Shown here: positions 5,545 through 64,000 of the stretch, in pieces
Layout of the letters: the number at the start of each line of letters is the position of its first letter
Numbering within the stretch: the first letter of the stretch is position 1
Assembly: GCA_016647705.1 (NCBI GenBank)
Contig: CM028333.1
Coordinates: 20,392,243 to 20,456,242 of the forward strand
Direction of reading: 5' to 3'
DNA: 64,000 nucleotides
Source: Eucommia ulmoides
Taxonomy: Eukaryota; Streptophyta; Magnoliopsida; Garryales; Eucommiaceae
The notes under the pieces: model-generated
Databases searched by the model: none
What the model was told of the DNA's origin: nothing
Seen by the model: only the letters and a program-made list of their open reading frames with translations
Program-made: the position numbers and the translations under genes

Positions 5545-5721
5545 CTACAAAACGGTGTTGATATGAAGCGCTTTCAGAAGAGAAGTAGCCATCTGCTTCA
5601 CCAAAACTTGCCCACCTGAACTCTGGCCGTCCCTTCGCTCTTCAATCAAATTTTGAAGTTTCTGAGGCAGGTCGTTCTCCACAATTAGTTGCTTTGGACG
5701 AGGATGGTGCTCATATATAGC
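5545..5721 (-). CDS. MAP3KE1: MAP3KE1 last coding exon with stop codon
   Basis: 177 nt, 58 codons plus [36 protein letters not shown], and the C-terminus [17 protein letters not shown] typical of the family. The acceptor AG is at 5722-5723. Because it sits 7.0 kb from the penultimate exon, an automatic model could drop it. Confidence 0.95.
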   Translation of the reverse strand, partial: AIYEHHPRPKQLIVENDLPQKLQNLIEERRDGQSSGGQVLVKQMATSLLKALHINTVL

Positions 5722-8700
5722 CTGTCATCATAAAAGCTCAGAATAAGCCTTCCCTCCCTCTATTGGGTGGAGTAAAATGTATTTCTAGTTTCACTTTGTG
5801 CTCTCTGTCTGGGAAAAATGATTTCAGCAGTTTCCATGCTTTTGGTTGGACGTAAAAAATGTCTTTAGGCACATAATCATCTACTAAGAACAGAGTAGTG
5901 AACTGATTGTGAAATAATGGACATTATTTTACAGGTACATACCAAAAAATGAAAAATGTATATATTGTCATTAATACGATTTACTTTGATGAACAGTGTT
6001 TTTATTGCAACGAATGTCTAAATTCCTTGATTTTAATTCCCTCCATCAAAATGGAACCTCAAGACATTGTTGACTAACTTTGCATGCAACCTCAAGATTC
6101 AGAAACTAAAGCAATAAAAAAAATCAAATACTCCCTCCGTCCGTCCCAAATGTATTGTCACATTTGACTTTGCCCAAGCTTTTAGGTACTCTTTGAATAT
6201 TTTGCACTTTACTATATTGCCCTTTGTTAAAGGGTATTTATGTCTTTTCTATTACTTAGAATTTTCTGTATGATTTCCTAATTCTTATTATGAATAGTGG
6301 GAGAAGCTAACACAATAGTTAAGCCTTCTTGTTCTTTCCATATCACCTTTTTACTTTAACATGGTATCCAGAGTAGGTTATGAGAGATTGATTCCATACA
6401 TCTGTTCAAACCAAAAAAAAATTATTCTCTTTTCCCCTGCCTACTGTTCATACGAAAAAAAAATAAAACTGAAACCCTAGCGGCCCGCCGCCGGCGCCAC
6501 CGCTCAACACACTCAGATCCGCGCCTCGCTGCAGTCACCCAGGCTATTTCGAGCCTCACCGACCGTCGCCCAGGCCATTCCGAGGCGCCGTCATCATCGC
6601 GAACCATCATCGACCCCAAAATTGAGCTATACCATCATCGCGAACCAGATCTCCTACTCGCTGTCCACCATCGACGTTGTCCACGTCGCCGTCGTCTCCT
6701 CTAATGTCGCCGGACCTTCGCTGGCCTTCAATTGCGCTGACTTGAGACTGCCGCTGTTGCTTCTGGTTATTGTTTGTAAGACAGCCCTACAGATGTTCGT
6801 GAGTATTATTCTGATTCTCATGTTCTTCGTTTAAGTCCTACAGTTATTTATATTGTTGGTTTGTTTCCCTTGGGCAAATTGTTTGTTAGTTGTTGTATTG
6901 GAGGATACTAATGTCGATGGCAACACCTCAACCATTAACAACCTGTAAGTTGAACGGAACCAATTATTTAAATTGGTCTAAGGCTGTGAAAATAGCCCTC
7001 ACCGGATAAAAGAAACATCGTCACCTTACGGAATCCGCCCCGGCAACAGATGACAAAAAGTATGACGACTGGATTCAGGCTGATGCGCAGATTGTAGCAT
7101 CGTTGTGGAATTCAATGGAATCTCAAGTTGTTGAACTCTGTACTCATCTAGATACGTGCAAAGATATATGAGAATATCTTCGTGTATTATATTCCAGTAA
7201 TCTCCTCAGAATGTATGATTTATCGGTAGAGTACTTTCAACTTCAGCAAGGCACGCAATCCGTTACAGATTATTTTGCCACATTCAACAGTCTCTATTAG
7301 GAGATGAATACTATCCTACCGATGACTATTGATCTGAAAGAAATACAAAAGCAATGTGAGCAGATAGTTATCATGAAGTTCTTGCCTGAATTACGCCCAG
7401 AATTTGAACCAGTCCGATCTCAGATTCTTTTCAGTGCTACTATTCCCACTATCACAGAAATGTATTCTCGCGTCTTGCGTTGCACTACCAAGGACAATGT
7501 GTCTGGCTTGAGTTCGTCTGTGTCGTCTGAGCATTCAGCACTTGTTACTCAGATTCCTACACGAGATCGTGGTGTTCCACTCAGTGGTGATCGTGGTGGT
7601 TTTTCTCGTGGTGGTGGTGGTTTCTCTCGTGGTGGTGGCTCTCGGGGTGGACGTAGTAGTCATGGTCGTGGCTCATATCGACAGTGCCCTTTTTGCGGAA
7701 AGGATAATCATAGTCGATAAACACATGGGGATTTAGTTGGCCGTCCTCCCAAATTCGCCAATGCAATGACATTTGATCCAAATACTCTTACCATTCCAGA
7801 ATTTCAGGCGGCCAAGGACATCTCTGATGATGACTATGCTCAATTCATTCAGTATAATGCATCCTAGCAAGCATCTTTTCCCATTGCTTCTTTAGCTCAA
7901 CGAGATACTTCTACTGCCTGTTTTTCAATTCACCATTCCCCATCTACTCCCTAGGTCATAGATTCTGCTGTCACTGATCACATGTCAGGTACTTCTACCC
8001 TCTTTACACATATTCAGTCATCTTCTTCGTTGTCTCCTGTAACAGTTGCTGAGGGTTCCACTGTCCCTATCTGTGGCATTGGCACAGTGGCACCCTCACT
8101 CTCCTTATCTCTACCCTCTGTCCTGTATATTCCTTCGTTTTCTTCTAATTTAATTTCAGTCAGTAAGCTTACCAAACACCTTAATTGTTCTGTCTCATTT
8201 TTTTCTGATTCTGTCATTCCCAAGGATTTGAGGATGCGGAAGACGATTGGCACCGAGCGTGAGGAAAATGGCCTATATTACTTTGATGACCATGGCGAGA
8301 GTCCTGCTATCCTACCTATTGCTTGCCCTACTGTTGCCTCCGCTCACCAGATCCATTGTCGCTTTGGTCATCCCTGCCTTGGCAACCTCAAGTTACTTGT
8401 TCCTAATTTGCGTCATTTGTCTTCGTTAGAATGTGAGTCTTGTCAATTGGGTAAGCATCATCGTATTTCATTTGCTTCCCCAGCTCATATTCGAGCATTG
8501 AGTCCGTTTAGTTTAGTTCATTCAGATATTTGGGGTCCTTTTTGTGTTACTTCTACATTAGATTTTCATTATTTTGTGACATTTGTGAATGATTTTTCCA
8601 GAGTTACTTGACTTTATTTAATGAAAGATCGTTAAGAATTATTCTCTATTTTTCGTGCATTGTGTGCTGAAATTAAAACTCAATTTAATGTACCAGTTCA

Positions 8701-11700
8701 TATTCTTCGAAGTGATAATGCTCGAGAATACTTTTCTCAGCCATTTACTTCTTTTATGTCACACTCTGATATCTTGTTCTCACACATAGCAAAATGGAGT
8801 TGCTGAGCGTAAGAATTGACATTTCCTAGAAGTGGCTTGTACTCTTCTTTTTAAGATGAACGTTCCCAAACATTTCTGGGGCGATGCGGTTCTTATCGGC
8901 TGCTTCTTAATCAACAGGATGCCATCCTCTACCCTCAACGGCAAGGTTCCCCATTCCATTCTTTTTCCTCGTTCTCCCTTGTTTAGTTTACCTCCTCGAA
9001 TATTCGGGTATGTTTGTTTCGTTCATCAATTGACTTCTGGCAGAGACAAGTTAGATCCTTCTGCTTTAAAATGTGTTTTCCTCGGCTATTCTCGCACACA
9101 AAAGGGTTATCATTGTTATAGTCCATCATTATGTCACTCGTTTGTATGTGCAGATGTTACCTTCTTTGAGTCTACCCCTTACTTTTTTGCCCCTTCCTCT
9201 TGAGACGATCTGGATGTTACGCTTCCCTTGCCAAGTGTACCAAATCCTACACTATCTTTCTCTATTCCAGATCCTATCATGCCTAGTCGTTCTTCAGCTC
9301 CTTTGCAAGTCTATAATCGTTGCCAGAAGGCCCCTTCCGTTGTCGCGCCCATCTACTCTGTGTCCTCAGATTCTTCTCCAGTTGACCCATCCATCTCTGA
9401 CCTGGACATGCCCATTACCATCCGGAAAGGAAAGCGCACATGTACTACCTATCCTATTTCTAACTTTGTTTCGTATGCACACCTATCTCCTTCGTATTCC
9501 TCTTTTGTTGTTTCTCTGTCCTCTGTTTCTATTCATAAGTCTGTTTCAGATGCCCTCACTCACCCTGGTTGGGCAAAAGCAATGGAAGAAGAAATGCTTG
9601 CCTTACATTAGAATGGCACTTAGGATATCGTCTCACTTACGCCTGACAAAACAATAGTTAGATGTAAATGAATGTACACTGTCAAGGTTCATCCGAATGG
9701 CACCATTGATCGACTCAAGGCTTGCTTAGTTGCTAAAGGCTATAATCAGATATACGACCTTGATTAATCTGAGACCTTCTCTCCGGTTGCCAAGCTCGCT
9801 TCTGTTCGCTTGTTTATCTCTTAGGCTTGTCACTTTTCGTTGGCCATTACATCAGCTTAATATCAAGAATACTTTCTTAAATGGCGATCTAACTGATAAA
9901 GTATCTATAGAGCAACCTCCTGGGTTTGTTACTCAGGGGGAGTCTAGATTGGTATGTCGCTTGAAGAAATCTATTTATGACCTCAAGCAGTCTCCTCGAG
10001 CATGGTTTAGAAGATTTAGTGAAGTGGTCACTGAGTTTGGTCTTCGACGATGTGGAGTCGATCATTCCGTCTTCTACAGGCATAGTAAAGTTGGGAGAAT
10101 CTTATTGATTGTGCATGTGGATGACATCGTGATTACCGGGAATGACTACAGTGGTATTCGAGAACTCAAAAAGTTTTTCAATAGTTAGTTTCGAACGAAA
10201 AATTTGGGTCACTTAGGCTCCGTTTGGTAACCCATTCCTTCCTAGAATTTCTCATTCCATTCCCGAATTTTTGGGAATTCTGTTTGGAAATAGCGTTTGG
10301 TAATTTTTGTTTTCGTTTCTATTCCATTTCCATTTGAGAATTGTGCCCATTTTTTTCTTAAGAAATGAGAAACAAAAAAAGGTTGTTTCTCATAATTTTC
10401 ATTCCATTCCCAAAACCACTGGACATTGTTCATACGCCGGCCGACCACCGTCTAGGAACCTCCGGCGACCGTCGCCGGCCACCTCCAGGAACCTCCGGCG
10501 ATAGTCACCGGCCATCTCCGGGAAACTCCGGCCACCGTCGCCGCCGCCGCCGCCAAAAAAAAAAAAAAAAAAAAACTAAAAAAAAAATAAAATTGGTTTT
10601 AGGATAAAAGCGTTACCAAACGCAATTCTATTCCCAAAACAAAAAAAAAATTATCGTTACCAAACGCGATTCTACTCCCAAGAAGGAAACAACATTCTCA
10701 TTCGGTCCCATCCTATTCCCATCTCACTGCTGGAATAGAAACAGAAACGGTTACCAAACGTCACCTTAAAGTACTTCTTGAGAATTGAAGTCGCTTGATC
10801 AAGTCAAGACATTTACTTGTCTCAGAGAAAATATGTCATTGACCTATTGAGCGAAACATGAATGTTAAAAACTAAACCGATTGACTCGCCTATGGATCCA
10901 AACACCAAACTGTTAGCAGATCAAGGTGTACCACTGACAGATTCAGCACAATATAGACGGTTAGTTGGAAAGTTGAACTACCTGACAGTTACCAGACCAG
11001 ATATCTCATTTGTTGTTAGTGTTATCAATCAGTTCTTAGATCGTCCAATGACTTGTCACTGGGATGCACTGATCCGTATTCTCCGATATTTGAAAGGTGC
11101 TCCTGCTTGTGGTCTGCTATATCAAAACTTCGGCCATACTCAAATAAAGGGCTACATGGATGCAAATTGGGCCGGATTGCCCTCGGATAGAAAGTCTACT
11201 ATTGGATATTGTGTGTTCGTTGGTAGTAACCTTGTCTCTTGGAAGAGTAAAAAGCCGACTGTGGTGGCACGGTCAAGTGCAAAATCGGAATACAGGGTAA
11301 TGACCCATACCACTTGGGAGTTAACTTGGTTGAAACACTTGTTAGAAGAATTTGGATTTGAACACTCTTCACCGATAGATCTGGTATGTGATAATTAAGC
11401 AGCACTTCACATTTCGTCCAACCCAATCTTACATGAGAGAACAAAACATATTGAAGTTGATTGTCACTTCATTCGAGAAAAAATGTTATAGAAGCAGATT
11501 GAAATTAAACATGTAAATTCAGTTGATCAGTTAGCTGATATATTTACTAAACCATTGGGAAGCTCAAGGATAAAATACATTTGTAACAAGATAGGAACAT
11601 ACAATATATATGCTCCAACTTGAGGGGGAGTGTTAAAGGATATTTATATATTTTCTATTACTTAGGGTTTCCTTTATGATTTCCTAATTCTTATTATAAA

Positions 11701-14700
11701 TAGTGGGAGAGACTAACACGATAGTTAAGTCTTCTCTTTCTTTTCATATCATCCTTTTACTTTAACACCCTTATTGGGAATGGTGTTAAAGTGATACAAC
11801 ATTTTGAAATTTGAATGCATGGTAAAGAAGAGGGTTATTTTGGAAGAGTGATAAAAGTATATTTGTTAAAAAAAGAAATATGACAATTAATTTGGGACAT
11901 CCTAAAAAGGAAAGTAAACAATTAATTTGAGACATATTAAGCAAGACTTGTTTCAATGTTTGTTCTCGAGTTGTTTAAAGTGCAATCATTACGCCTTTGA
12001 TCTTAGAGCAAGTCGAGAACAGTTTTATTTGAGGAAGAAATCAGGAACCAAAGCTGTCATAACTAACAATGAATGAATTAAGAAACAGGGTTCGCTTTCA
12101 CATCTTTCACATTAACAGAAAACAAAAACTTAATGAAGTCAATACAAGCTAGCTGGACTATTATTTTATGTATATATTCAGAGCAAACATGATTGAAGTT
12201 CGAAACTCGTGAATGCCAAAATCGAATTTAAAAACAGATCCCACGAGGAAAAGAAAAGGTCAAGGAATAGAAAAAGTCAAAAGTACTTCATCACCAGAAT
12301 TGATTGCTTTATGACGTTACAGTTTGTCACTTCATACCAAGGTAATAAAATAGCTACCTAAAAATGTGGAAGTTATATACATCCACTTCTTTTGCTAGGC
12401 TATATACAAACATGTGTGTGGTGTGTGTGTGTGTATGCAAAACACTGATCCTCAGAAGAACCAGCCAAATATAATAAAAAAATAAGCTTCATTCCCAATT
12501 CTAATGTCTAAACAAATTCTTAAATCCTATGATTAAGAAATTCAAATGATATAGAGGCCTCTATCTGAATAAGATTCCAAAGCTACAGTTTGAATAACAT
12601 ATCATCCATCGAAAGAGTGTTAAGTAGCATGCGTTAACATATTGAGCTTACAATAGAAGCGATTGCCAGCAACATAAATCAACACTAGCAAAATATAGTA
12701 ATCATAACAATAAATAAACAAAAAACCTGTAAAATCAAAGTTTCTTACCTTGATTAGTTTGAGCAGATTCAGTCTAGCAATAGCATCCTGGTGATCAAGC
12801 CTCGAAATAAGCAAGGGGGTCAACCCATTAACAGCCAAAGTGGTATTAATTCGGGATGATTTCCTGCATAGTTTTAGAAAATATAGCAGATTACCTCCCA
12901 AATATGAACCACAGTAAAGATAGGTTACCAACCACACAAGACATCACGTGCTTCATAAAGAACCTACAGAAGTACATCCCATTTCAAGCAGGAGAGACTT
13001 TGCATCTGCATCATGACACAATGAACACTTCCCTACATCCAACAGCCACATCCTAATGCAAGCATGTGTTTTACGCAGGAAAACCTCTGCTTTCATTTTA
13101 TTTTTGAGTTTCACTAGTGAAACTTCTCAAAGCTAAGCAATGTGAGAAAGAGATAATAATCATACACCTTTGAATGGTTAGTAACATAGAGAAGATTGGG
13201 GAAATAGGGTTACATTTCAAATACACATGAACTGTACTTACCCTTTTCATAAGCATAATGTAGAATTTATGCAGATGTTTTAAATATAGTATTTATTAAA
13301 GATAGTAAGGGCGGTTTGTGATAAATGTTTCGGGGTGCAATGAAATTATTTATAAAAAATATTTGGAAAGTAACATTTGACTAACTCACTGTTAGTCAAG
13401 GGGGCAATCTGATACGAAAACCCAAACCTCAAGGGTAGTTCTTGCTATTTAAGAAAAAGTAAGGGTGGTTTGTGATATCATGGCAAATCTCAGGGGAGGA
13501 TAATGATAGTTTCCCTCATATGAATAGATAAAAATTAAAACTGGAAGGTTGAAGATAACGTACGTGATAATCTTTAAGAAGGGCTCCAATATATGCAGAA
13601 AATGCTGTTCCGGACAGCTCTGGAAGAAGTTCACCAGTTTCTGGACTGCCTCCTTTCTCAGTAAAGCTTGTTCTACCTTTTTGTTGTCATTGTCATGTGC
13701 CAAGCAAACAGCAATAGAATCCAATGCTGTTACAGACCAAAAATCATCTTCAAGTAGGCTTAGGTACACATCTAACCCACCATGAGCCCTCAGCTGCTCT
13801 CTTGAATTACGTGATGCATGGGCCATATCACATAGCAGAGGCAACGCACATTGTTTCAAAGGAGAACTTGACATAATAAAATGCATCAAGTGTGGAACGA
13901 TTCCATTTTCGGCCGCTTGTTCCTGTCTCCTCTTATTTATCTTGCAGAGATTGAATAGTGCATGGAGGACCTTCAATAGATGAAAAATTAGCTAGAGAGC
14001 ATCCAAAAATGGAAATGTTGTAGATATGCGCCGCTTAAAAAAACAAATTTAATTTACATCTAAGAAGATATCTACATGTAGAACAACAGAGAAATTCATA
14101 TAATTTGGAAGACCACAAATTGGAAAAAGATAAGAAATCACTATTACAATCTACAAATAACATGGAACACTGAAACAGGCCCAAATTTTAAATGCTGCCA
14201 CATAACCACTTCACGCAGAAAAAAAAATCATCACAATGACATTAATTGTGGATAGGTTTGTGCAGGCGAGAGAGAAGAATGAGAAATAAAGTAAAAAAGA
14301 GAAAAAAATGACTAAAGAGAGAGGAAAAAAAAAAAAAAAAGGCGAAGGATAAAAAGGAAAGAATTTGGGAAATTCTGAGAGTTCCCACCTCATGATGTAT
14401 TTGAGATACAAGAGGGCCTTCTTTGAGGTCAAGGTTTGGGATCAAATGTTTAATAGCATCTGCTCGCTGAAGATTCTCCAAGCAGTGTGGATCGGTCGAC
14501 AGGAGATTGATACACCTCAACAACTAACAACAGAAACAGAAAATATCAAATGAATGTCAGAATTCATTGTGCTGAAACAAAATGACAACAAAATGCTCAT
14601 GTACCTTTAGAAGAATAGGGGGCTCTATCTTATTGAACATCTGAAAAAGACGACTAAGCAAGCTTTGGCTACACATGTAGGATTTTACAGCAGTGTCTGC

Positions 14701-28160: not shown

Positions 28161-28195
<35 letters not shown>

Positions 28196-51633: not shown

Positions 51634-51668
<35 letters not shown>

Positions 51669-57600: not shown

Positions 57601-60600
57601 TCTGTCAATTTTGTCGCAACCCCAAAATCTGCAAGTTTCACAAGACCCTGAAAGCGCAGGTCAGTTCAACCAAGTATGTCAATTAAAACCCTAAATATAT
57701 TGAGAAAGCAAAATAAACAAGCAGATAACAATAAGAAAAATAAATATAAGGAAATTATAAGGAAAAAAATAAAATGAAAACTAGGCATGTGAACAGACGA
57801 TGAAAACTGAGGACGCATAAAGGGATAGTTAACAACTGAGTTCTATATCAGTTCGGAAAGAGTTTCAATACACCAACGGAATAATGTTCAGAAAATGTTT
57901 AAATGTCAATTCTTCAAACCAATATTGTGGTCTATCAAAAGAAGCAAAGTTATTCTACAGAAACATTTAAGGATGTGGTATGAAAACCCTACACACAATA
58001 AAAATGTGTCCTACAGACAGATGAAGTTATGGTTGGCTACCACCCTTACGGAAAAATCATTTTTGGTGTGTAGATTCCAAGAAATGTGAAATGGAAACAA
58101 CATATAATTCAAAAGGTGGAAGGCAAGTGGTCCGAACCTTTTAAGGACATTTCACTTTCAGCATGAAAATAAAAAGAAACAAAAAACAATTCAAATTCAT
58201 TTGTTTACTTGATGAAACAAAGAGTATGTTCGATAGTTGAACTCTTTTTCTAAAACAAGCAAAACTCAAACACATTTACTTTTGACTCGTAAAGATTCAA
58301 CTTCGCCAGCTCAGCTCATTTGCTAATATGACTACTATATTAAAGCCAAGATCACGTACAGGAATCACCAAATATAACACAAGGCAGATCTGTATTTTGC
58401 CATACGTCAATTAATTTAACCAAGAAAAGTTTCAATTTTCGTGGAATTATATGGTTAAAGATGCCCGCATCAATTCAAGTTCGTGTTTCATGATTCATGA
58501 ACTTTTTACATTCATTACAAGTATGTTTTCCAACCTCCTAACTTATCATATTTAATTACACACATGAATTTCTAGCTTTTCTTGCACCTGGATTTTTTAA
58601 AATTCGATACTCAAGTTTTCCAAATTTTTAATTCATTCTACTTGGATTTTCCTTACTAGCAAAATCCTTCAAAAAAGTCACACTCATGTGCGATCAGGTT
58701 TGAACATCTCTTGCACCAACTAAACCTCAAAAAAAAATTTCTCAAATATTTCAGCTGAATAGAAAACATGTAATAGCACTTCTTGAAAAAAGAACATCTC
58801 TCAAGCAATGGCCACTAGCCCACTAGCCACCCTCGGCAAGACACAGCCAAAGCACCACTTCTCATCTCTCACGCAATGGCGACTAGCCCACTAGCACCAC
58901 CAAGGCACCACCACCATCAAAACCCTTTATCTCTCACTGATTTTATTTTCATGTACATTTTCTCTTTATCTCTTCCCTAACCTAAATACATCTCTCACTA
59001 AGTGGTGCATGCACCACCAGATTCAAGTTCTCTTCTCTGCCTTCCTCCGACCACCGTAGTTAGATCTGAGCTTCCCATCATGCCTTTCGCCAAATTCAGG
59101 TGTGCTCATCTCTCTCCATCTCCCTTGCGCTTCCCTCCAACCATTATAGCTAGATTGGAACCCGATTCTAAAGTCTCTACCAAATTTTCTTGAATATTAT
59201 CCGTTGATTACTTTAAAACTATGCATATTGAAGTTTTGTAAGCATAGTTGGTATTGAAGAGTTGTATTTTTGTTATTTTTTCCTATTTATTTTCTTCAAG
59301 AGTTTCTCGATTACACAATTGATAATCTTTTATTTTCTTTCTAAACATATTTGAATTTTAATGTTCTACTTGTTTGGTTGCAATTGAAAATGTGATTTCA
59401 ATTCAAGGATTATAGAGATTTTCAATCAAAACGTATAATGCGAATTCAGAATGAAATTTTATGTAATATATTTGATAAGATTATTTTTTAATTGGGTTGC
59501 ATTGATAACTATAATTTCTATATTATATAGGTTTCTTGATAATAGTTTGCTAATGTGTAATGTTCATTGTAACAAAATCGTGCTACTTTATCAGGAATTA
59601 AGGACATGTATTACATTAGTGCCTTTAGGTATGCATACACGCTAATACATTATATATATATATATAACTTCAACAAGTCTCACACTCCTACCCCTGCTCA
59701 CCCCTCGCTTCTTGCTTATAAGTGATTTACTATCAATAAATGAATAATTAGAACTTTCCAAAAGTCTTCACACTATTAGCTTGTGATCTAGAAACCCCGA
59801 AATAGAAATCGTCATGGAAAGTAACAGCAAATTTCAACATACACTGAAGCTTTACTTTGCACCAATAGAAAATTTGCTAGACTTTACGAAGGCTACATTA
59901 ACCCAAACAAAACAACATACATGAGCAGAACTTCTGTAATTTCAAAAATGCTAGTAGGTTCCTCATTAGCACGACGTAAATTAGCCAAGGAAAGCCGAGT
60001 GTAGTCACTCATATGCTTGAAAAAGAGAGTCATGAAAATCCCCTTCGAAAAATGCAGCTAGAATAGCATAGGAAGGAAGGCTCCAATAATACCTCTTTGG
60101 TTGTCAATATATTTGCACCCTTGATATCCCGATGGATCACACCCTGTTCGTGGAGATAAACCAAGCCTTCCAATACCTGGTAAAGAGTAAATTGTCATCA
60201 AAGTGAATCCCAAAATAAAGCAACAAACTGCATGGTAATTGACAAACCTGAGTAATGTAAACAGCAACAAGTGATTCTGGAAATGGCCCGAATTTGTTCG
60301 GCTTGATAATGTTTGCAAGTGAACCATTCTCCACATATCTTTATTCAAAAAAAGAAAATGGTGCGCTGTTATCTATTGATTGTCTCCAGCATCATGACTT
60401 AAATTATACTCCCTCCATCACGAAATAATTGTGTCTAGGCACTGACTTAAATTATACTCCCTCCATCACGAAATAATTGTGTCTAGGCACAAAGTTTTAG
60501 GTAATGTTTGACAAATATCTGTTTCCTATGGTGCAACCAGGTAAAGGTGTAAAAGGTTTCATCTATGTTGTTTAGGGGAGTAGTTTAAAAGAGAATAAGA

Positions 60601-63600
60601 TTGGGAAAAGTGAAAGTTCATTAACTAAAAGAGAATGTGGACATTTATCTTGGGAAATCATAAAAAGAAATTTAGGACAATTATTTTGGAACTTGAGTAT
60701 AAGAAAGAAAGGGGGTGAGGGGTGGGGGGTGGGGGGGTACTTACTCGAGAATTATGTGAAGATGAGTCTTTGTCTTTAAGGATCCAAGATATTTGACGAT
60801 GTTTTTGTGATTCAAATTCTGAAACATAACAAAAAAAATTAAGTGGATGGACAAAGTCGAACACAAAGTTATGCAAATTCTCTTGTCTAACTTTGGTCAT
60901 CCAATATGTACACCAGTTAGTTATAGTACATTGATACCATGCATAAATAACATTGACCAAATTTCGCACGTGATGAAACCACAGGCAATCCCAACATGTA
61001 ACTTTTTCTTTTCTTTTTTCTGCTAAGCAAGGAAATGTCATTACAAGGCACAAGCCTTACAACATAGAAAAGACTGTGAATCCTTAATTTCCTCTGGAAA
61101 ATCGAGGAATGAAGAGCTCCCTAAGATATCTCCATGGGATATTTGCCAACATGTACATTTAGCAAATGCTTTGCATCTAAACTAAGACGAATAAGAAGCT
61201 AAACTATACATCTACATGCGAAATAGATATGCCTGGATCGATTGAGGATCAATTGATATGAGAAGTACTGGAAGAGCAGTCGTAAAAGATGGAGAAGTTA
61301 CCTTGAGCAAATCAATCTCTTGCTGAAGCCATTAATGCAACCCACCAATGTCAGAATATTCCAAAAGAAAAGCAACAACTGGTGAGTGAATTTAAAAAGG
61401 GGAAAGAATGCATTATAGAGCATGGATAATACATATAAAACAAGATACCAAAAATGTCTTGGTGTGCACACTAAAATAAATGCAGAAACAACAGTTAAAA
61501 GAGATAAAACCGCAACCACATCAAAATCAACAGAACATATTAAAATGCTAAATTATGTAATATCCTTCCACAGATTGACAAACCAGAAGAACAAGAGGAA
61601 GGGCAATGTGGAAATCAAATGATACATGCCGTGGAACTTGGCGAAGTTCATATTCACGATGAATTATTTTTAGTATCGGTATATATCTTTTTCCCAATTA
61701 CATGTAAATCTCCTTTTGCAAAAGTCTTATGAATGTTCTATTTGATTTCAGGACTTAATGATTAGAATCTTTGGCCTAAGGTGTCATGTTGGAAACTTTA
61801 TTCTGGATCTATTTTCTAATTCCGGTTATGAATTTTAAAGTCACTTGGGTTCTGCATTTTAAAGACCCACCATAAGTCCTAAACGAATTAAGCAATTTAT
61901 TCCTAAGTTTTTACTGAGAAATAGTTCGTGATCCCAATTATATCGCATCATATTCATTCTGCAAATTACTGAGCAAATATATATATACATTTACATATAC
62001 TACTAAAGTACTAAGTCTGTATGAAACATGACGGAAATAATACGGTGTCTCTATAATTAGTTCGTGCGTTCCTCAGATGATGGGCCTAATGCGTTTCATC
62101 CAAGGAAACTCTTGGTGGGATGTTTGGAACTTTCTCTTCCACTTCTATTACTAGATTTCCATTCTCTCAGAAACTACAGCTCACATGTTACAACTACTGA
62201 AGACACCATTTTATTTTCAATCTCCAAGACAATCCTTATCAAGCTGATGTTAAATTGAATCCATTCTGCCACTGTTTAGCCTTCAACAAAACATCCCAAA
62301 TCAAAGTTCACCATACAATAAATAAAAATACTGACACCTCTGTTCGTAATCAAGCTAAAACAGGCCCACTTATACCTAGCATGACACTTGCACCATTTCC
62401 ATGAACAGGTATTATGAGCACACTCCATATGTTGTAAAACAAGCACTTCATCATCAGGACTGGGATGGAAACAAAACCTAAAGTACCGGATTTGCGGCCT
62501 GTATACAACCATCAAACCACAAACAGAAAAAGGACTCTGATTCACACAAGAAAAGAAGGGAGATACCAGGGTCCTGTAGAAGGATCTAATCAAAAAAGGT
62601 TCCTCTTGTACCAAATCAACTTATTTTCCTTGCCACTAACCACCCTGAACTCCGAAAGCAACGCAAGAAAATTCCCAACAATCTGAAACACCAAATCCAG
62701 AAGGTTTCTTCTGATGGAAAGCCAAGTCCAAGCGGTACAAGTTAAAAAGCAATGATTCCATGCTTGTTGCTCGCCACCCAAAAAACCCGAGGAAAATGCT
62801 CCACAAGTGACAAAACGCCACACCGTCTGGCCACCTCTCCCATTCCAATCTCAAAATGTGTAGAGGACCAAAAGGTGTAGGCGACCCCCATAATGGTCTT
62901 CCACACTTCGACGCCATAAGAGGAACTTACGGTGCGAGATCTCCAACCACATTGCTCCAAACCTCGCCACAATCACACTCCTCCACATCGCCCATCCTCA
63001 ATGTGAATCTCCAGATCCACTTCCCTACAAGAGCCTGGCCGAGATTAGGAAACTAGAGATACCTAGGAATCCATCCTAAGGCGATCTGCACAATCGCCTC
63101 CAACTTACAAAGTGAATCTTAATACTATTTAGTGTCTCCCACAAAAACATACTAAATTTTGCTCAGCGTCTCCACAACCGAAGCTGGAATAGAGATGGAA
63201 GGGCATGAAATAGGTAGGTGAACTAGCGAGAATGTTTTCAACAACGTCCTATTTCTATCAAATATTTTATCTATTTCAGATCCAAAATTGATTTATGAAT
63301 GTCAAATGAACTAAACTCCATGTAAGAGTCCACACTATTCCTTTGTTATTAGCCTTTTTTTAATATAATTACAGTTTTGTACATACTGCTATATATATAG
63401 AACATCCATAAAATTAAAAATCCTATTTGGACTTCTATGTCTTTACAATCATAAGGAAAACATTACAATTTCTATGATAGCGCAAGTAGTTTTTGTGTCA
63501 TACATTTTTGTTGATATTTATAAACTTATTCCTTAATAAGAAACTCAATTTGATAATTACAAAAGAAGATATAAATAAATAAATAAATAAAAAAAGGTCG

Positions 63601-64000
63601 CACACGGCATAGCTTGTGCTCCAAGTATATAACCAAATAAAGACAACAACTCCATTCTATTGCATGCCTAGAGAATCACATTTAAATTTAAATCTAAGAT
63701 TTCATACTTGGTGTTGAGCCAGCTTGAAGTCTTAATTTTATCAAAGCAGAAGATTGAAGATTGAAGATTGAAGGTAACCAAAGAAGAAGAATGTTTCTAA
63801 TAAACCAAGACTCTATATTCCATCTCATGTAGTACATAATCAATAAATTTAAAGAGGAAAAAGGAGATTGAAATTATCTAATTTGAAGCAAAACATACCA
63901 TAATGATGTTAAGATCTACTTGAGCAATATTCTCCAAGGAAACTTGCTTAATTGCAACAAAGTCTCCATTTTCCAAATCTAGACCTTTGTAAACTCGACC
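5545..64000 (-). CDS. MAP3KE1: MAP3K epsilon protein kinase gene (5' end outside window)
   Basis: Spliced gene of at least 23 coding exons, each listed separately. Together they give 1,373 codons plus a stop; Arabidopsis MAP3K-epsilon proteins are about 1,370 residues, so only about 30 N-terminal residues are missing. Order: Ser/Thr kinase domain (VAIK lysine, HRDIKGAN catalytic loop, [12 protein letters not shown]), a Ser/Glu/Asp-rich linker, a conserved block ([16 protein letters not shown]), then ARM/HEAT-like helical repeats ending [11 protein letters not shown]. Every junction is GT-AG and all phases agree, so the gene looks intact and probably functional despite about 54 kb of intron. 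Family knowledge: these are Cdc7/Sid1-like MAP3Ks acting with MOB/SGP-type partners, needed in Arabidopsis for pollen viability and plasma-membrane integrity. The name rests on remembered family sequence, not on a search. Confidence 0.96.
6225..6361 (+). repeat. copia-1 5' LTR
   Basis: 137 bp, TGTTAAAGGG...TTTAACA, followed directly by the primer-binding site. Confidence 0.93.
6917..11620 (+). pseudogene. copia-1 gag-pol remnant
   Basis: Single-polyprotein order with many in-frame stops: gag (from MATPQPLTT; Arg/Gly-rich tail and CCHC zinc knuckle near 7685), protease (VIDSA..DHMSG near 7958; the DSG-type site reads DSA), integrase (zinc motif [10 protein letters not shown] near 8346, VHSDIWGP near 8515), RT ([11 protein letters not shown] near 9970; active-site YVDD reads HVDD near 10112) and RNase H (CVFVG..LVSWKS near 11210). 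Stops replace Trp and Gln codons in several places, and a Harbinger insert splits RT. It cannot be translated as one protein. Confidence 0.9.
10216..10765. mobile_element. PIF/Harbinger-type nonautonomous element inside copia-1
   Basis: 550 bp with TIRs GGCTCCGTTTGGTAACC / GGTTACCAAACGTCACC and a 3-bp TSD TTA (10213-10215 and 10766-10768). Removing it and one TSD restores the copia RT sequence. The interior is simple (CCGGCGACC repeats, A-runs) with no transposase. The same family occurs at 17339-18222. Confidence 0.88.
11631..11767 (+). repeat. copia-1 3' LTR
   Basis: 137 bp, the same length as the 5' LTR, preceded by a polypurine tract at 11620-11630. Confidence 0.93.
12413..12434. repeat. 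(TG)n microsatellite
   Basis: TG-rich dinucleotide run in the last intron, with one interruption. Confidence 0.8.
12749..12863 (-). CDS. MAP3KE1: MAP3KE1 penultimate exon
   Basis: 115 nt. The first base completes the split Thr codon, then [20 protein letters not shown] and [18 protein letters not shown] follow. The last coding exon lies 7.0 kb further on, beyond a retrotransposon. Confidence 0.95.
12864..13563 (-). other. MAP3KE1 intron, 700 nt, nothing else identified
   Basis: AT-rich, with no recognisable transposon ends. Text near 13305-13460 contains two similar 'AAGGG(C/T)GGTTTGTGATA' phrases about 150 bp apart, perhaps the arms of a decayed MULE-like element. Confidence 0.4.
13564..13970 (-). 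CDS. MAP3KE1: MAP3KE1 exon: [20 protein letters not shown]
   Basis: 407 nt. Several ARM-like repeats, including [40 protein letters not shown] and [11 protein letters not shown]. It ends in phase 2. Confidence 0.95.
14389..14523 (-). CDS. MAP3KE1: MAP3KE1 exon: [20 protein letters not shown]
   Basis: 135 nt, 45 codons, phase 0, ending [11 protein letters not shown] before the donor GTGGG. It is an ARM-like repeat. Confidence 0.95.
14605..14993 (-). CDS. MAP3KE1: MAP3KE1 exon: conserved VADLLLEFA region
   Basis: 389 nt. After a variable start ([13 protein letters not shown]), it encodes [20 protein letters not shown] and [20 protein letters not shown], then [20 protein letters not shown]. 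This is the most conserved part of the C-terminal half. The following intron is 81 nt. Confidence 0.95.
15055..16338. mobile_element. Mutator-like (MULE) element, possible gene capture
   Basis: Long TIRs: the left arm 'GGGAAAATTACACTTTA' and the reverse complement of the right arm 'GAGAAAATTACACTTCA' stay alignable for about 60 bp. Flanking 9-bp direct repeats TAAAATGCA (15046-15054) and TAAAATATA (16339-16347) match at 7 of 9 bases, the size typical of MULEs. No transposase was seen. The interior 15600-16110 is GC-richer and coding-like. Confidence 0.75.
17339..18222. mobile_element. PIF/Harbinger-type element, second copy
   Basis: The right end is GGTTACCAAACGGGGCC followed by TAA; the left end is a degenerate CTGGTAACC near 17347. 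The right 150 bp match, inverted, the left end of the element at 10216 (TTTGGGA, GCGTTTGGTAA), so both belong to one family. The left border is uncertain by a few bases. The interior carries a 26-bp tandem repeat at 17570-17700. Confidence 0.8.
17570..17700. repeat. Tandem repeat, unit CCCCAATCGAAATCGAAATC
   Basis: About five imperfect units of 22-26 bp (AATCGAAATCGAAATCCTAAACCCC type) inside the Harbinger element. They make a fake 102-codon frame on the minus strand. Confidence 0.8.
18600..19694 (-). other. MAP3KE1 intron remainder
   Basis: No transposon ends or coding sequence recognised. A 20-bp poly-A run is present near 19451. Confidence 0.4.
19695..20557 (-). CDS. MAP3KE1: MAP3KE1 large central exon
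   Basis: 863 nt, the largest exon. It starts [20 protein letters not shown] and [20 protein letters not shown] (helical repeats). It then enters a Ser/Pro/Asp-rich disordered stretch of about 170 residues, and ends with the conserved [20 protein letters not shown] and the [20 protein letters not shown] segment. The frame runs open at both ends, but the AG acceptor at 20557 and the GTAAG donor at 19694 fix the boundaries. Confidence 0.95.
21980..22430 (-). mobile_element. TRIM LTR joined to a copia leader (chimeric fragment)
   Basis: On the minus strand, a partial TRIM internal repeat (22378-22430) is followed by a 116-bp TRIM-type LTR (22377-22262, TGTTGAATCCC...TTTTCTGCA). Next comes TGGTATCAAGAACAG and a stretch matching the 5' leader of the copia elements ('CATAGATCTGTTCAA', then the T-run and CT-rich tract). 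It ends with TTTTACTTTAACA, the 3' end of the copia-1 LTR, at about 21985. Confidence 0.7.
22811..23339 (+). mobile_element. TRIM element (TRIM-A)
   Basis: Miniature LTR element of 529 bp with no coding capacity. The 5' LTR is 22811-22927 and the 3' LTR 23224-23339 (116-117 bp, both TGTTGAATCCCACATCG...). The PBS TGGTATTAGAACC starts at 22928 and a purine-rich tract GTGAGGGGGCG lies before the 3' LTR. No clear TSD was found. Confidence 0.88.
22964..23223 (+). repeat. Three tandem units filling the TRIM-A interior
   Basis: Units at 22964-23045, 23046-23134 and 23135-23223 (82, 89 and 89 bp). Units 2 and 3 are nearly identical. Each begins with an LTR-like 'TGTTGAATCCCACAT' and contains 'CCGTTCGCAGTGGTTTGTC'. 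Confidence 0.9.
23701..23892. repeat. Tandem duplication of 96 bp
   Basis: Units 23701-23796 and 23797-23892 differ at about one position (TTTGATGA / TTTGACGA), suggesting a recent event. It lies in an intron and has no coding content. Confidence 0.92.
24722..24805 (-). CDS. MAP3KE1: MAP3KE1 exon: [20 protein letters not shown]
   Basis: 84 nt encoding a helical repeat that ends EADYAKYR, the last Arg codon being split with the next exon. It is separated from the previous exon by 93 nt. Confidence 0.95.
24899..24990 (-). CDS. MAP3KE1: MAP3KE1 exon: [20 protein letters not shown]
   Basis: 92 nt ending ...FFLQQLCQS in phase 2. It is helical-repeat coding sequence with a conserved position in the family. 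Confidence 0.95.
24991..26166 (-). other. MAP3KE1 intron, 1,176 nt, no feature found
   Basis: AT-rich with GC-richer patches at 25080-25110 and 25700-25770. No terminal repeats, RNA gene or transposon domain recognised. Confidence 0.4.
26167..26250 (-). CDS. MAP3KE1: MAP3KE1 exon: [20 protein letters not shown]
   Basis: 84 nt, 28 codons, phase 0. It continues the ARM-like repeat through ENACLVGL. The intron to the previous exon is only 115 nt, in contrast to the 18.7-kb intron just upstream. Confidence 0.95.
26366..26545 (-). CDS. MAP3KE1: MAP3KE1 exon: start of ARM/HEAT-like region
   Basis: 180 nt, 60 codons: [20 protein letters not shown], then the [20 protein letters not shown] helices, ending LLEVPRTR. 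First helical repeats of the C-terminal domain. Donor GTATGT after the Arg codon. Confidence 0.95.
27196..27613 (+). repeat. Gypsy 5' LTR with a 130-bp insertion
   Basis: 418 bp against 287 bp for the 3' LTR. The extra sequence lies at about 27340-27480 and includes a (GTT)n run. The first base is G where the 3' LTR has T (TGATGGGG). Confidence 0.8.
28173..28194. repeat. (AT)n(AG)n microsatellite
   Basis: ATATATAT followed by AGAGAG repeats in the gypsy untranslated leader. Confidence 0.85.
29139..29278 (-). repeat. copia-2 3' LTR
   Basis: 140 bp. The adjacent CTCCTCCTCAAGCTG is the complement of the polypurine tract. Confidence 0.92.
29286..33310 (-). pseudogene. copia-2 gag-pol remnant
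   Basis: Starts [17 protein letters not shown] at 33310. Gag with Arg/Gly-rich tail and zinc knuckle near 32560, protease (ATDYML in place of ATDHMSG, near 32265), integrase (SHTAAKWSC / [14 protein letters not shown] near 31455), RT (YVDDIVIT near 30185) and RNase H ([20 protein letters not shown] near 29710, [20 protein letters not shown]). The RNase H part is a clean 184-codon frame, but stops and frameshifts occur in gag, integrase and RT. Confidence 0.9.
33970..34109 (-). repeat. copia-2 5' LTR
   Basis: 140 bp, flanked on its inner side by the primer-binding site and on its outer side by ACAAC. Confidence 0.92.
34268..34426 (+). repeat. copia-3 5' LTR
   Basis: 159 bp, TGTTAAAAGG...CTCTAACA, with the PBS directly after it. 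Confidence 0.93.
35160..38698 (+). pseudogene. copia-3 gag-pol with most of gag deleted
   Basis: From MATPQSLTT the frame jumps after about 20 residues almost directly to the Arg/Gly tail and zinc knuckle ([14 protein letters not shown]), so about 500 bp of gag is missing. From 35501 a 685-codon open frame covers protease ([13 protein letters not shown]), integrase ([24 protein letters not shown]) and the start of RT. Single stops follow at 37556, 38159, 38246 and 38345. YVDDIMIT is intact. Recent but not autonomous. Confidence 0.92.
38735..38893 (+). repeat. copia-3 3' LTR
   Basis: 159 bp, 22 bp longer than the copia-1 LTRs but sharing the same ends. Confidence 0.93.
39858..40125. repeat. 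Tandem duplication of about 145 bp inside gypsy pol
   Basis: 39858-39998 and 40003-40125 share 'AGCCAAACCCAACCCC', 'GAATGGGTCTTCTT', 'CACCCATAAGAATGAACTTC' and 'GGTTTGAGCATG'. It falls between protease and RT and adds to the disruption. Confidence 0.85.
41769..42460. mobile_element. hAT-type nonautonomous element in gypsy integrase
   Basis: 692 bp, TIRs TAGAGATGCCC / GGGCATCCCTA, and a perfect 8-bp TSD CTAGCTTG (41761-41768, 42461-42468). The interior is a mesh of AAAACCAAAACC repeats with no transposase. The same family is at 56241-57241. Confidence 0.92.
43484..44361. mobile_element. TIR element with GGTTCAACC-rich ends
   Basis: The left end CTTTAAAAATAGGACCGGGCC and the right end (reverse complement CAATGTTTTAAAACCC...) are inverted, with shared CCGGTTGAACCG-type blocks. 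It lies between gypsy integrase and the chromodomain. No clear TSD, so the borders are approximate. The interior has a short coding-like stretch at 43710-43933. Confidence 0.65.
44372..44548 (+). pseudogene. Gypsy integrase C-terminal chromodomain
   Basis: [17 protein letters not shown], then RYLIKWKG, one in-frame stop (TGA), then [20 protein letters not shown]. The Y-L-I-K-W-K-G and TW..NEEL positions match chromodomains of plant chromoviruses. It is separated from the rest of integrase by a TIR element. Confidence 0.85.
44565..44851 (+). repeat. Gypsy 3' LTR
   Basis: 287 bp, TGATGGGGATCG...CTTCATCA, preceded by a purine tract (GCCGGGGAGAAT) and followed by the TSD ACTCC. Confidence 0.88.
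45210..45254 (-). CDS. MAP3KE1: MAP3KE1 short exon [15 protein letters not shown]
   Basis: 45 nt, 15 codons, in phase 0, matching the family segment before AVEFSRLV. It is the last exon before the 18.7-kb intron; the next coding base lies at 26545. Confidence 0.93.
45352..45684 (-). CDS. MAP3KE1: MAP3KE1 exon: conserved linker block
   Basis: 333 nt, 111 codons. It begins [20 protein letters not shown] and contains the strongly conserved [20 protein letters not shown] and [19 protein letters not shown]. This is the junction between the linker and the C-terminal helical region. Confidence 0.95.
46400..47690 (-). mobile_element. LINE (non-LTR) 3' end fragment
   Basis: On the minus strand, around 47690-47260, frameshifted translation gives a reverse-transcriptase zinc-binding C-terminus: [39 protein letters not shown], then W/R-rich residues. 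Two related 165-bp blocks (46427-46592 and 47070-47240) lie on the 3' side. No RT core is present. Confidence 0.6.
46427..47240. repeat. Direct repeats of about 165 bp
   Basis: 46427-46592 and 47070-47240 share 'TTTTAGAGAATCCTAGTGTT', 'GGACTCCTTCCTCAAAT', 'CTCAATGACTCAAGT' and 'TTAAGCTCTCCTA'. A third, inverted remnant (AGTCTTTAGCTTTCGATTTTC) is at 47970-48003. Confidence 0.75.
48290..48900. repeat. Possible solo-LTR-like fragment
   Basis: GC-richer block starting near 'CCTCCGGCGTGAGAATAAGT', a phrase that reminds me of LTRs of plant retrotransposons. No TSD, PBS or partner repeat was found, so this is weak. Confidence 0.25.
49557..49881 (+). mobile_element. TRIM element (TRIM-B)
   Basis: Left LTR about 49557-49663 (ending CCTCTTAACA), PBS-like TGATATCAAAACTGG from 49664, right LTR from 49788 (TGTTGAATTCCATATCG). 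Both LTRs contain 'GATTTTAGGTTGGAACCTC'. No coding capacity. The ends are eroded, with no TSD. Confidence 0.75.
50319..50341. repeat. (GA)n microsatellite
   Basis: Nearly perfect GA run in an intron. Confidence 0.85.
50429..50773 (-). CDS. MAP3KE1: MAP3KE1 exon: linker with [11 protein letters not shown] motif
   Basis: 345 nt, 115 codons, rich in Ser, Glu and Gly. It holds the short conserved motif [12 protein letters not shown], also present in the Arabidopsis proteins as I recall them. Probably disordered. Phase 0 at both ends, open throughout. Confidence 0.92.
50919..51009 (-). CDS. MAP3KE1: MAP3KE1 exon: variable acidic linker, part 1
   Basis: 91 nt encoding a low-complexity stretch ([20 protein letters not shown] and onward to ESTN). 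It follows the kinase domain directly. The sequence is poorly conserved, so the call rests on splice-site fit and frame continuity with both neighbours. Confidence 0.85.
51618..51664. repeat. (GACA)n(GA)n compound microsatellite
   Basis: GACAGACAGACA followed by a GA run; likely polymorphic. Confidence 0.9.
52385..53260. mobile_element. hAT-type nonautonomous element
   Basis: 876 bp with perfect 17-bp TIRs CTAGGAAGCACGGACAC and an 8-bp TSD AACCTATT (52377-52384, 53261-53268). The subterminal regions are packed with GTGTCGG/CCGACAC repeats. No transposase was seen. If one base is shifted, a 9-bp TSD reading (GAACCTATT, MULE-like) is also possible. Confidence 0.88.
52780..52803. repeat. (CT)n microsatellite
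   Basis: CT run inside the hAT-type element. Confidence 0.9.
53288..53678 (-). mobile_element. TRIM element (TRIM-C)
   Basis: Minus-strand TRIM. The 5' LTR is 53514-53678 (TGTTAGAATCCCACATCG... on the minus strand) and the 3' LTR about 53288-53392. The PBS TGGTATTAGAGCTAGG lies just inside the 5' LTR. It sits 40 bp from a kinase exon and next to the hAT element. It is the same family as TRIM-B (shared LTR phrases). Confidence 0.85.
53551..53670. repeat. 60-bp tandem duplication inside the TRIM-C LTR
   Basis: 53551-53610 and 53611-53670 are near-identical (GAGTAACTTCTTTCATATAT...). This makes the 5' LTR 165 bp rather than about 105 bp. Confidence 0.92.
53717..53820 (-). CDS. MAP3KE1: MAP3KE1 exon: end of kinase domain
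   Basis: 104 nt encoding [20 protein letters not shown] and [14 protein letters not shown]. It contains the RPDA and HPWI motifs that close the kinase fold. It ends in phase 2 into the linker exon. Confidence 0.95.
54388..54459 (-). CDS. MAP3KE1: MAP3KE1 exon: [15 protein letters not shown]
   Basis: 72 nt, 24 codons ([20 protein letters not shown] then CFKK), the alpha-H region of the kinase C-lobe. The residue after ITDFL is Trp, where I recall Arg in Arabidopsis; this is probably a neutral difference. Confidence 0.95.
54964..55095 (-). CDS. MAP3KE1: MAP3KE1 exon: kinase C-lobe, [14 protein letters not shown]
   Basis: 132 nt, 44 codons: [20 protein letters not shown], then [20 protein letters not shown] and RIVQ. 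This is the alpha-F helix region with the conserved Asp-Ile-Trp-Ser motif. Phase 0 at both ends. Confidence 0.96.
56241..57241. mobile_element. hAT-type element, second copy of the AAAACC family
   Basis: 1,001 bp, TIRs TAGGAATGCCA / TGACATCCCTA, and a perfect 8-bp TSD TGGATGAG (56233-56240, 57242-57249). The ends are full of GGTTTTGGTTTTGG repeats like the element at 41769. The interior from 56519 looks like a separate insertion (see the CACTA entry). Confidence 0.92.
56519..57000. mobile_element. Possible CACTA-type MITE inside the hAT element
   Basis: Starts CACTATAACAAAAAC, like the ends of CACTA-derived MITEs. It contains repeated 'TAGGGCAC' / 'GTGCCCTA' blocks on both strands. The opposite end is not clear, so this is tentative. 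Confidence 0.4.
57546..57647 (-). CDS. MAP3KE1: MAP3KE1 exon: DFG and activation segment
   Basis: 102 nt, 34 codons. DFG (magnesium-binding) is followed by [17 protein letters not shown] and TPYWMAPE, the full activation segment and APE motif. All catalytic residues are intact, so an active kinase is expected. Confidence 0.96.
57648..60092 (-). other. MAP3KE1 intron, 2.4 kb, no clear element
   Basis: AT-rich except for a C-rich patch at 58800-59190 that has two similar 'CAATGGC(C/G)ACTAGCCCACTAG' phrases. It looks like the leader of some transposon, but no terminal repeats were found. Confidence 0.4.
59651..59668. repeat. (TA)n microsatellite
   Basis: Short TA run. Confidence 0.8.
60093..60176 (-). 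CDS. MAP3KE1: MAP3KE1 exon: catalytic loop HRDIKGAN
   Basis: 84 nt, 28 codons, encoding [20 protein letters not shown] followed by ANILTTKE. It contains the catalytic aspartate of HRD and the conserved lysine and asparagine of the loop. Phase 0 at both ends. Confidence 0.96.
60248..60338 (-). CDS. MAP3KE1: MAP3KE1 exon: [11 protein letters not shown] hinge region
   Basis: 91 nt encoding [17 protein letters not shown] and [11 protein letters not shown], the hinge and alpha-D/alpha-E region of the kinase. The first base completes the Glu codon of the previous exon. The following intron is only 71 nt. Confidence 0.95.
60396..60490. repeat. 48-bp tandem duplication of the MITE end
   Basis: Two copies of 'GACTTAAATTATACTCCCTC...' with no visible differences over 47 bp, implying a recent event. 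Confidence 0.92.
60409..60697. mobile_element. Stowaway MITE with duplicated left end
   Basis: Left end CTCCCTCCATCACG after TA; the right end GGAACTTGAG before TA is a degenerate inverted copy. A 48-bp tandem duplication (60396-60443, 60444-60490) repeats the left TIR. The element makes up most of a 406-nt intron of the kinase gene. Confidence 0.75.
60706..60739. repeat. G-run tract on the plus strand
   Basis: Several runs of 3-7 G in 34 bp, ending 5 bp from the donor-side edge of the exon at 60745. It could form a G-quadruplex on the strand opposite the gene. Confidence 0.85.
60745..60818 (-). CDS. MAP3KE1: MAP3KE1 exon: [12 protein letters not shown] to HIILE
   Basis: 74 nt covering kinase subdomains IV-V ([13 protein letters not shown], then [10 protein letters not shown]). 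It ends in phase 2, completed by the next exon. Its donor GTAAGTA runs straight into a C-rich tract on the gene strand, reported as a finding. Confidence 0.95.
61302..61322 (-). CDS. MAP3KE1: MAP3KE1 micro-exon QEIDLLK
   Basis: A 21-nt exon encoding QEIDLLK, the alpha-C helix segment whose glutamate pairs with the catalytic lysine. It is flanked by AG and GTAAC and is in phase 0 on both sides. It is easily missed by gene finders because it lies between a 2.6-kb and a 0.5-kb intron. Confidence 0.93.
61323..62269 (-). other. MAP3KE1 intron part, no feature found
   Basis: AT-rich; no terminal repeats or coding region recognised. Confidence 0.4.
62270..63060 (-). mobile_element. LINE (non-LTR) C-terminal fragment
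   Basis: Frameshifted minus-strand translation from 63060: [17 protein letters not shown], then [24 protein letters not shown] and [16 protein letters not shown]. This is the post-RT region of plant L1-type LINEs (ALLGKWLWRF...; W-K-I-..G; F.VGDG..I.FW). No RT core. It lies in the first visible intron, in the same strand as the gene. Confidence 0.6.
63061..63898 (-). other. MAP3KE1 intron part, no feature found
   Basis: AT-rich, with a short (AATA)n run at about 63572-63590 and a 'GAAGATTGAAGATTGAAG' repeat at about 63751. Nothing else recognised. Confidence 0.4.
63899..64000 (-). CDS. MAP3KE1: MAP3KE1 exon: glycine-rich loop and catalytic lysine
   Basis: First visible coding exon, cut by the window edge. 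It gives 34 residues in frame from GRVYKG (end of the GxGxxG nucleotide loop) through [11 protein letters not shown], which holds the ATP-anchoring lysine. The donor GTATG follows directly. The upstream part of the loop (expected GKGAY) and the start codon are beyond 64000. Confidence 0.93.

Follow-up and report, generated by a model that had tools for sequence, protein, structure and literature searches.

The locus examined here raises the question of how a gene for a conserved signalling kinase can extend over more than 58 kb, most of it intron loaded with transposable elements (TEs), and keep its reading frame, and of whether such a gene stands apart from others of its genome. The window, i.e. 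the whole 64,000-nt stretch of Eucommia ulmoides DNA that was analysed, corresponds to C9:20392243-20456242. Exons were placed by spliced alignment of its minus strand with an Arabidopsis MAP3K-epsilon-like probe, after which the junctions were set manually and checked for phase. The automatic alignment had placed spurious short exons at 63,706 and across the divergent linker (53,600-46,000) and had split exon 18, all of which were replaced by the phase-checked junctions; it had also skipped a 21-nt micro-exon (QEIDLLK, 61322-61302), which is bounded by AG and GT.

Read on the minus strand from 64000 to 5545, the gene model comprises 23 exons of 4,122 nt in total, stop codon included, in a single frame with zero internal stops. 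The exons are separated by 22 introns of 71 to 18,664 bp each (54,334 bp in sum), with GT donors in 22/22 and AG acceptors in 22/22 cases. A sequence-only reading of this DNA had claimed 23 exons (4.1 kb) in one frame with canonical splice sites and 22 introns of about 54 kb, and these counts bear it out. In a leave-one-out scoring against all minus-strand GT (3,576) and AG (3,547) dinucleotides of the window, a background that includes the true sites, 19 of the 22 donors lie at or above the 90th percentile (the weakest at the 84th), as do 16 of the 22 acceptors (the weakest at the 58th). The further claim of an intact gene of more than 58 kb holds for the frame, but the gene is not whole inside the window: its 5' end lies beyond the edge, with the start exon 2.8 kb further upstream. 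In full, 1,404 codons are spread over 24 exons, the 23 introns amount to 57,022 bp, and the distance from ATG to stop is 61,237 bp. From 5' to 3', its parts are located as follows:

L009 2781..2722, upstream flank outside the window, 5' of window position 64000: gene exon 1, the start exon (MSRQTTTSAFHKSKTLDNKY)
L009 33..1, directly adjoining window position 64000 on the 5' side: first 33 nt of gene exon 2 (MLGDEIGKGAY)
63899..64000, minus strand: window exon 1 (= gene exon 2); the glycine-rich loop GKGAYGRVY spans the window edge
61302..61322, minus strand: window exon 2, micro-exon QEIDLLK, 21 nt
60745..60818, minus strand: window exon 3
60248..60338, minus strand: window exon 4
60093..60176, minus strand: window exon 5, catalytic loop HRDIKGAN
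57546..57647, minus strand: window exon 6, DFG and GTPYWMAPE signature
54964..55095, minus strand: window exon 7
54388..54459, minus strand: window exon 8
53717..53820, minus strand: window exon 9, where the kinase domain ends
50919..51009, minus strand: window exon 10, linker
50429..50773, minus strand: window exon 11, linker
45352..45684, minus strand: window exon 12
45210..45254, minus strand: window exon 13
26546..45209, minus strand: window intron 13, the largest (18,664 bp), with 5 of the 12 named insertions inside
26366..26545, minus strand: window exon 14
26167..26250, minus strand: window exon 15
24899..24990, minus strand: window exon 16
24722..24805, minus strand: window exon 17
19695..20557, minus strand: window exon 18, the longest (863 nt)
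14605..14993, minus strand: window exon 19
14389..14523, minus strand: window exon 20
13564..13970, minus strand: window exon 21
12749..12863, minus strand: window exon 22
5545..5721, minus strand: window exon 23, the last coding exon, with the stop codon

Intron length is distributed unevenly over the gene (mean 2,479 bp, median 700 bp): 12 of the 23 introns are at most 700 bp long, and the 11 introns above 1 kb carry 53,342 of the 57,022 bp. By arithmetic on exon lengths, window intron 13 falls after codon 563 and separates residues 1-563, which comprise the kinase and the linker, from the C-terminal region. Two intronic tandem duplications are apparently recent, a perfect one of 48 bp (60395-60490) and one of 96 bp that is 99% identical (23701-23896). 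Rfam searches at gathering thresholds returned no family in the window.

The encoded protein looks like a MAP3K-epsilon-type kinase. Its protein kinase domain (Pfam PF00069, residues 20-274, E=6e-73) has intact catalytic motifs and carries GTPYWMAPE at residue 181, an instance of the MEKK-type signature, which is given as G(T/S)(P/A)x(W/F/Y)MAPE in a 2017 survey of the Eucommia MAP kinase cascade (PMC5735150). From end to end (1,438 aligned columns), the protein is 68.1% identical to an Arabidopsis MAP3K-epsilon-like sequence, which serves as a family guide only; together with the kinase domain, this agrees with the family named in the sequence-only reading. A C-terminal region of ARM/HEAT-type repeats is a feature of the MAP3K-epsilon family, and residues 1101-1248 match Pfam ARM_ARMC5 with E=9e-12 and 45.4 bits, a score below the curated cut-off of 79.9. 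Among the best 60 of 145 matches to solved chains, the top ones are STE20-family kinases (STK25, STK24, MST), and MAP3K2 and MAP3K5 rank lower. Arabidopsis MAP3K-epsilon1/2 (AtMAPKKK7/AtMAPKKK6) likewise consist of an N-terminal MEKK-type kinase and a long C-terminal region, and the probe, again as a guide only, aligns with the predicted Eucommia protein over the full length.

The 2017 survey reports 57 MAPKKKs in Eucommia, 12 of them of the MEKK type, with EST or unigene support for every listed gene, and in its main text AtMAPKKK6 (AT3G07980) and AtMAPKKK7 (AT3G13530) are named as homologue of none (PMC5735150). The MEKK-type genes it describes have at most 17 introns (PMC5735150), as opposed to 23 in the present gene. 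Given its year, it presumably drew on proteins of the fragmented v1.0 draft. The locus may therefore fill the AtMAPKKK6/7 gap, the gene having possibly been absent from the survey because of its length, and it may illustrate how TE-stretched genes escape surveys.

Copy number was assessed with two non-overlapping protein queries which together cover 696 of the 1,404 residues, both taken from the region C-terminal to the kinase domain. A C-terminal query of 232 residues gave three matches in the 946.7-Mb assembly, all in window exons 21-23 (7/7 candidates scored), and a 464-residue query corresponding to window exons 18-20 gave three matches as well, each in an exon of the same gene (5/5 candidates scored). 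A second intact copy elsewhere, which had been named beforehand as part of the possible counter-evidence to the proposed gene, was thus not found in the 946,670,599-bp assembly (391 contigs) with these 696 residues, and as far as tested the gene appears to be single copy in the assembly. A genome search with PF00069, in which 128 of 2,350 first-look candidates were scored, listed no exon of the gene and is therefore silent on copy number. If a genome duplication reported for Eucommia at 27.3 Mya is right, the duplicate of this gene has been lost. Arabidopsis, in contrast, has two redundant MAP3K-epsilon copies, and a T-DNA in exon 17 of one of them is just 4,534 bp away from its ATG (PMC8910673), compared with a span of 61 kb for the gene in Eucommia.

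Self-comparison and Pfam searches identified three LTR-bounded copia elements in the introns, which belong to one family with short LTRs:

6225..11767, plus strand (antisense to the gene): Copia-1, window intron 22, LTRs 6225-6361 and 11631-11767, frames broken
29139..34109, minus strand (gene sense): Copia-2, window intron 13, LTRs 29139-29278 and 33970-34109, frames broken
34268..38893, plus strand (antisense to the gene): Copia-3, window intron 13, LTRs 34268-34426 and 38735-38893

Ty1/copia elements are recognised by LTRs of the form TG..CA, a 5-bp target-site duplication, a tRNA-primer site and an integrase that precedes the reverse transcriptase. Copia-3 qualifies as such an LTR retrotransposon by its ends (TGTT...AACA), its target duplication (CATGT/CATGC, 4/5 matching), the tRNA-primer site TGGTATCCAGAG after the first LTR, and its Pfam domain order of gag_pre-integrs, rve, SH3 and RVT_2; its integrase and reverse transcriptase regions are recognisable and its frame is interrupted. 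Genome-wide, its LTR has 1,480 first-look candidates, 40 of which were scored. Copia-1 is flanked by CCCTT/CCCTT and Copia-2 by ACAAC/ACAAC. Copia-2 and Copia-3 lie 158 bp apart (34110-34267) in opposite orientation, and since each has its own flanking duplication they represent two separate insertions near one site.

The two LTRs of an element differ at 17 of 137 sites in Copia-1, 13 of 140 in Copia-2 and 7 of 159 in Copia-3, which corresponds to distances of 0.139, 0.101 and 0.046. At 1.3e-8, an alternative substitution rate for LTR dating, the insertions are 5.4, 3.9 and 1.8 My old, respectively. At 8.25e-9, the rate of the Eucommia v2.0 assembly paper, the ages become ~8.5, ~6.1 and ~2.8 My, and at either rate the errors are wide because the LTRs comprise only 137-159 sites. 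The assembly paper puts the onset of the LTR expansion in Eucommia at ~7.2 My and its peaks at 5.2-3.6 My, a wave that the three copia insertions roughly match.

The other named insertions in the window introns are mostly shorter repeats:

10216..10765: nested within Copia-1, a MITE-like insert with a duplicated TTA
17345..18235: MITE-like relative of the insert nested in Copia-1, window intron 18, approximate edges
22256..23336: TRIM-like repeat cluster, window intron 17, TGTTGAATCCCACATCG-type units with an 89-bp tandem array inside
27197..27614: dispersed ~0.3-kb repeat, window intron 13, split by a ~0.14-kb insert
40753..43527, plus strand: gypsy-type remnant, window intron 13, RVT_1, RT_RNaseH_2 and Integrase_H2C2 at 40753-41768
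44566..44852: second copy of the dispersed repeat at 27 kb, window intron 13
46596..46921: LTR-like repeat, window intron 11, with 40 of 282 first-look genome candidates scored
49562..49880: TRIM-like element, window intron 11
53291..53678: window intron 9, TRIM-like element whose LTR-like ends are duplicated

TTA duplication, inverted ends and the lack of a transposase are hallmarks of PIF/Harbinger-type MITEs, and the nested insert, a candidate of this type, has inverted CCGTTTGGTAACC-type ends in which 14/17 bases are alike by eye; neither Copia-2 nor Copia-3 has such an insert at the matching place. For the ~0.3-kb repeat at 27.2 kb, 40 of 654 first-look genome candidates were scored, and its ~0.14-kb interruption (27342-27483) is absent from several other genomic copies. 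Several of the scored copies of the LTR-like repeat at 46.6 kb are paired, 0.3-3.0 kb apart. The part of the gypsy remnant at 41769-43527, in which no Pfam match was obtained in its two frames, was included by eye only. Altogether, 12 insertions could be named, located in window introns 9, 11, 13, 17, 18 and 22 (six out of 22), four of them with protein-level evidence (the three copia elements and the gypsy remnant), where at least 15 recognisable transposon insertions had been claimed. They account for ~21.6 of 54.3 kb, counting the nested element once and including 1.8 kb of the gypsy remnant placed by eye, and leave ~33 kb of the intron DNA in the window unassigned to any element. A BLAST comparison of the window with 28 other loci (230,120 bp) yielded 15 matching intervals, which serve as a pointer only, the loci being non-random (20 placed by hand, 8 from the kinase search).

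Taken together, the locus is very probably an ordinary nuclear MAP3K-epsilon-type gene on the large contig C9, single copy as far as tested, whose introns have been stretched by TEs and which tolerates this load. Its length would result from its many introns (23) and from recurrent TE insertions in a subset of these. RNA polymerase II would transcribe across about 61 kb, the TEs would be kept silent within the gene, in line with the heterochromatic marks on intronic TEs of transcribed genes in Arabidopsis, where factors of the IBM2/EDM2 type act in reading through them, and the introns would be spliced out whole; with the TEs silent and the introns removed whole, the load would be tolerated rather than functional. 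To be set against this reading are the 3 donors and 6 acceptors, of 22 each, that score under the 90th percentile, and the ~33 kb of intron DNA outside the named elements. That the gene keeps its function under the TE load, as the sequence-only reading had it, is accordingly a prediction: the clean frame is compatible with a working gene as well as with a recently silenced one. Such silencing would mean that the exons are intact and that the TE load has abolished transcription, with the function lost or assumed by other MAP3Ks. The heavy insertion load and the lack of a second copy to the two queries (696/1,404 residues) are compatible with a dead gene, as is the 2017 survey, whose main text has no AtMAPKKK6/7 homologue among genes that are all supported by ESTs or unigenes (PMC5735150), although absence from a protein set that presumably derives from the fragmented v1.0 draft is weak evidence. 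Against it, the 1,404 codons are free of stops and frameshifts and 22/22 introns keep GT-AG, even though the oldest dated insertion is ~5-9 My old, and the Arabidopsis double mutant is reported to have abnormal pollen (PMC8910673). A recently dead gene is therefore considered improbable. The chance that TE sequence was misjoined into the gene during assembly is slighter still. TE-rich loci are generally error-prone in assembly, but the window contains zero ambiguous bases (N), the target-site duplications of three insertions match exactly or nearly so, and the nested insert has a 3-bp duplication, features that misjoins would not produce. Furthermore, Eucommia v2.0, if it is the source of the sequence, is PacBio-based and was made from a haploid.

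More weight, albeit still as an unlikely alternative to a tolerated load, falls on the possibility that transcription often ends within window intron 13, yielding a short transcript for residues 1-563 beside the full mRNA, with the balance set by heterochromatin of the intron. This intron separates the kinase and linker from the C-terminal part and harbors Copia-2, the only one of the three copia elements in sense orientation, but the other two and the gypsy remnant run antisense to the gene, which argues against early termination. In Arabidopsis, where LTR elements likewise reside in introns, intronic TEs are heterochromatic inside transcribed genes, and this is described as affecting how transcripts elongate and whether poly(A) signals within the TEs are used (PMC4417168, PMC10241880), which provides a precedent. 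An extended form of the proposal, in which the ratio of the full-length to the short kinase-plus-linker product (1-563) is governed by silencing of the 18.7-kb TE intron, so that the sole MAP3K-epsilon gene is dosed by chromatin, is a long shot. If true, a signalling gene essential in pollen and lacking a backup copy would have gained a regulatory switch through TE insertions of the last several My.

The tolerated load favored here has counterparts in other plants. In grapevine, the 2,697 introns mapped in the range of 3-100 kb are reported to consist of more than 80% repeats, without bias toward gene families, and to cause genes to be split in annotation (PMC3058033). As in Eucommia, these large introns are built from LTR elements and other repeats; however, ~30% of the intronic LTR pairs in grapevine are >99% identical (PMC3058033), whereas the pairs at the Eucommia locus differ by 4-12% and are older. 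For Pinus massoniana, 18,536 introns >20 kb are described, the long ones validated by PacBio reads and introns being longer in low-copy genes (PMC12122422). The Eucommia locus resembles this situation in that long introns occur in a low-copy conserved gene, but introns in the pine are much larger (mean 11.56 kb) and have long-read validation (PMC12122422), as opposed to a predicted mean of 2.5 kb in the Eucommia gene. TE-rich introns in plant genes are hence already established, and the locus adds a well-bounded new example, namely a conserved, apparently single-copy gene with datable intronic insertions.

Within its own genome, the gene was compared with 12 Cpn60/TCP1 and 12 adaptin-type genes or gene pieces, for which HMM-matched domain spans were taken and exon hits were grouped by eye. 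For the Cpn60/TCP1 controls, 50 of 67 hits were used (12 genes) and 17 lone or paired hits were left out; for the adaptin-type controls, all 39 of 39 hits were used (12 genes, two of them with just two hits). The measure is the genomic span divided by the matched model positions and refers to domains, not to whole genes, and the spans of controls come out too short because of missed exons. The 24 controls range from 3.0 to 50.8 bp per position (median 10.4); five of them lie below 5 bp per position and are intronless or nearly so over the matched stretch, and the other 19 have a median of 15.7. With 43.6 bp per residue, the MAP3K-epsilon-type gene is second of 25, the sole more stretched control being a Cpn60/TCP1 gene at C16:38646184-38666522 (50.8 bp per position). 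The gene thus lies within the upper tail for its genome and not outside it, as measured against few, hand-grouped controls. The Eucommia v2.0 paper gives a mean intron length of 1,306 bp and a repeat content of 62.5%; a mean intron about twice the published one, combined with 23 introns, accounts for the long gene. The sequence-only reading had recommended the locus as a good study case, a view that loses force with 1 of 24 controls more stretched and with TE-expanded introns known in numbers from grape and pine.

Among the Cpn60-type matches, most of which are split by introns, an intronless frame of 549 aa was observed at C10:19422572-19424059, which matches PF00118 positions 1-487 and may represent a retrocopy or else a sequence derived from an organelle or of bacterial-like type. 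Adaptin-type frames that are intronless over 441-455 model positions were found at C84:91000-92346, C56:830135-831478 and C10:18038703-18040088, and two of these three sit on contigs beyond the 17 large ones.
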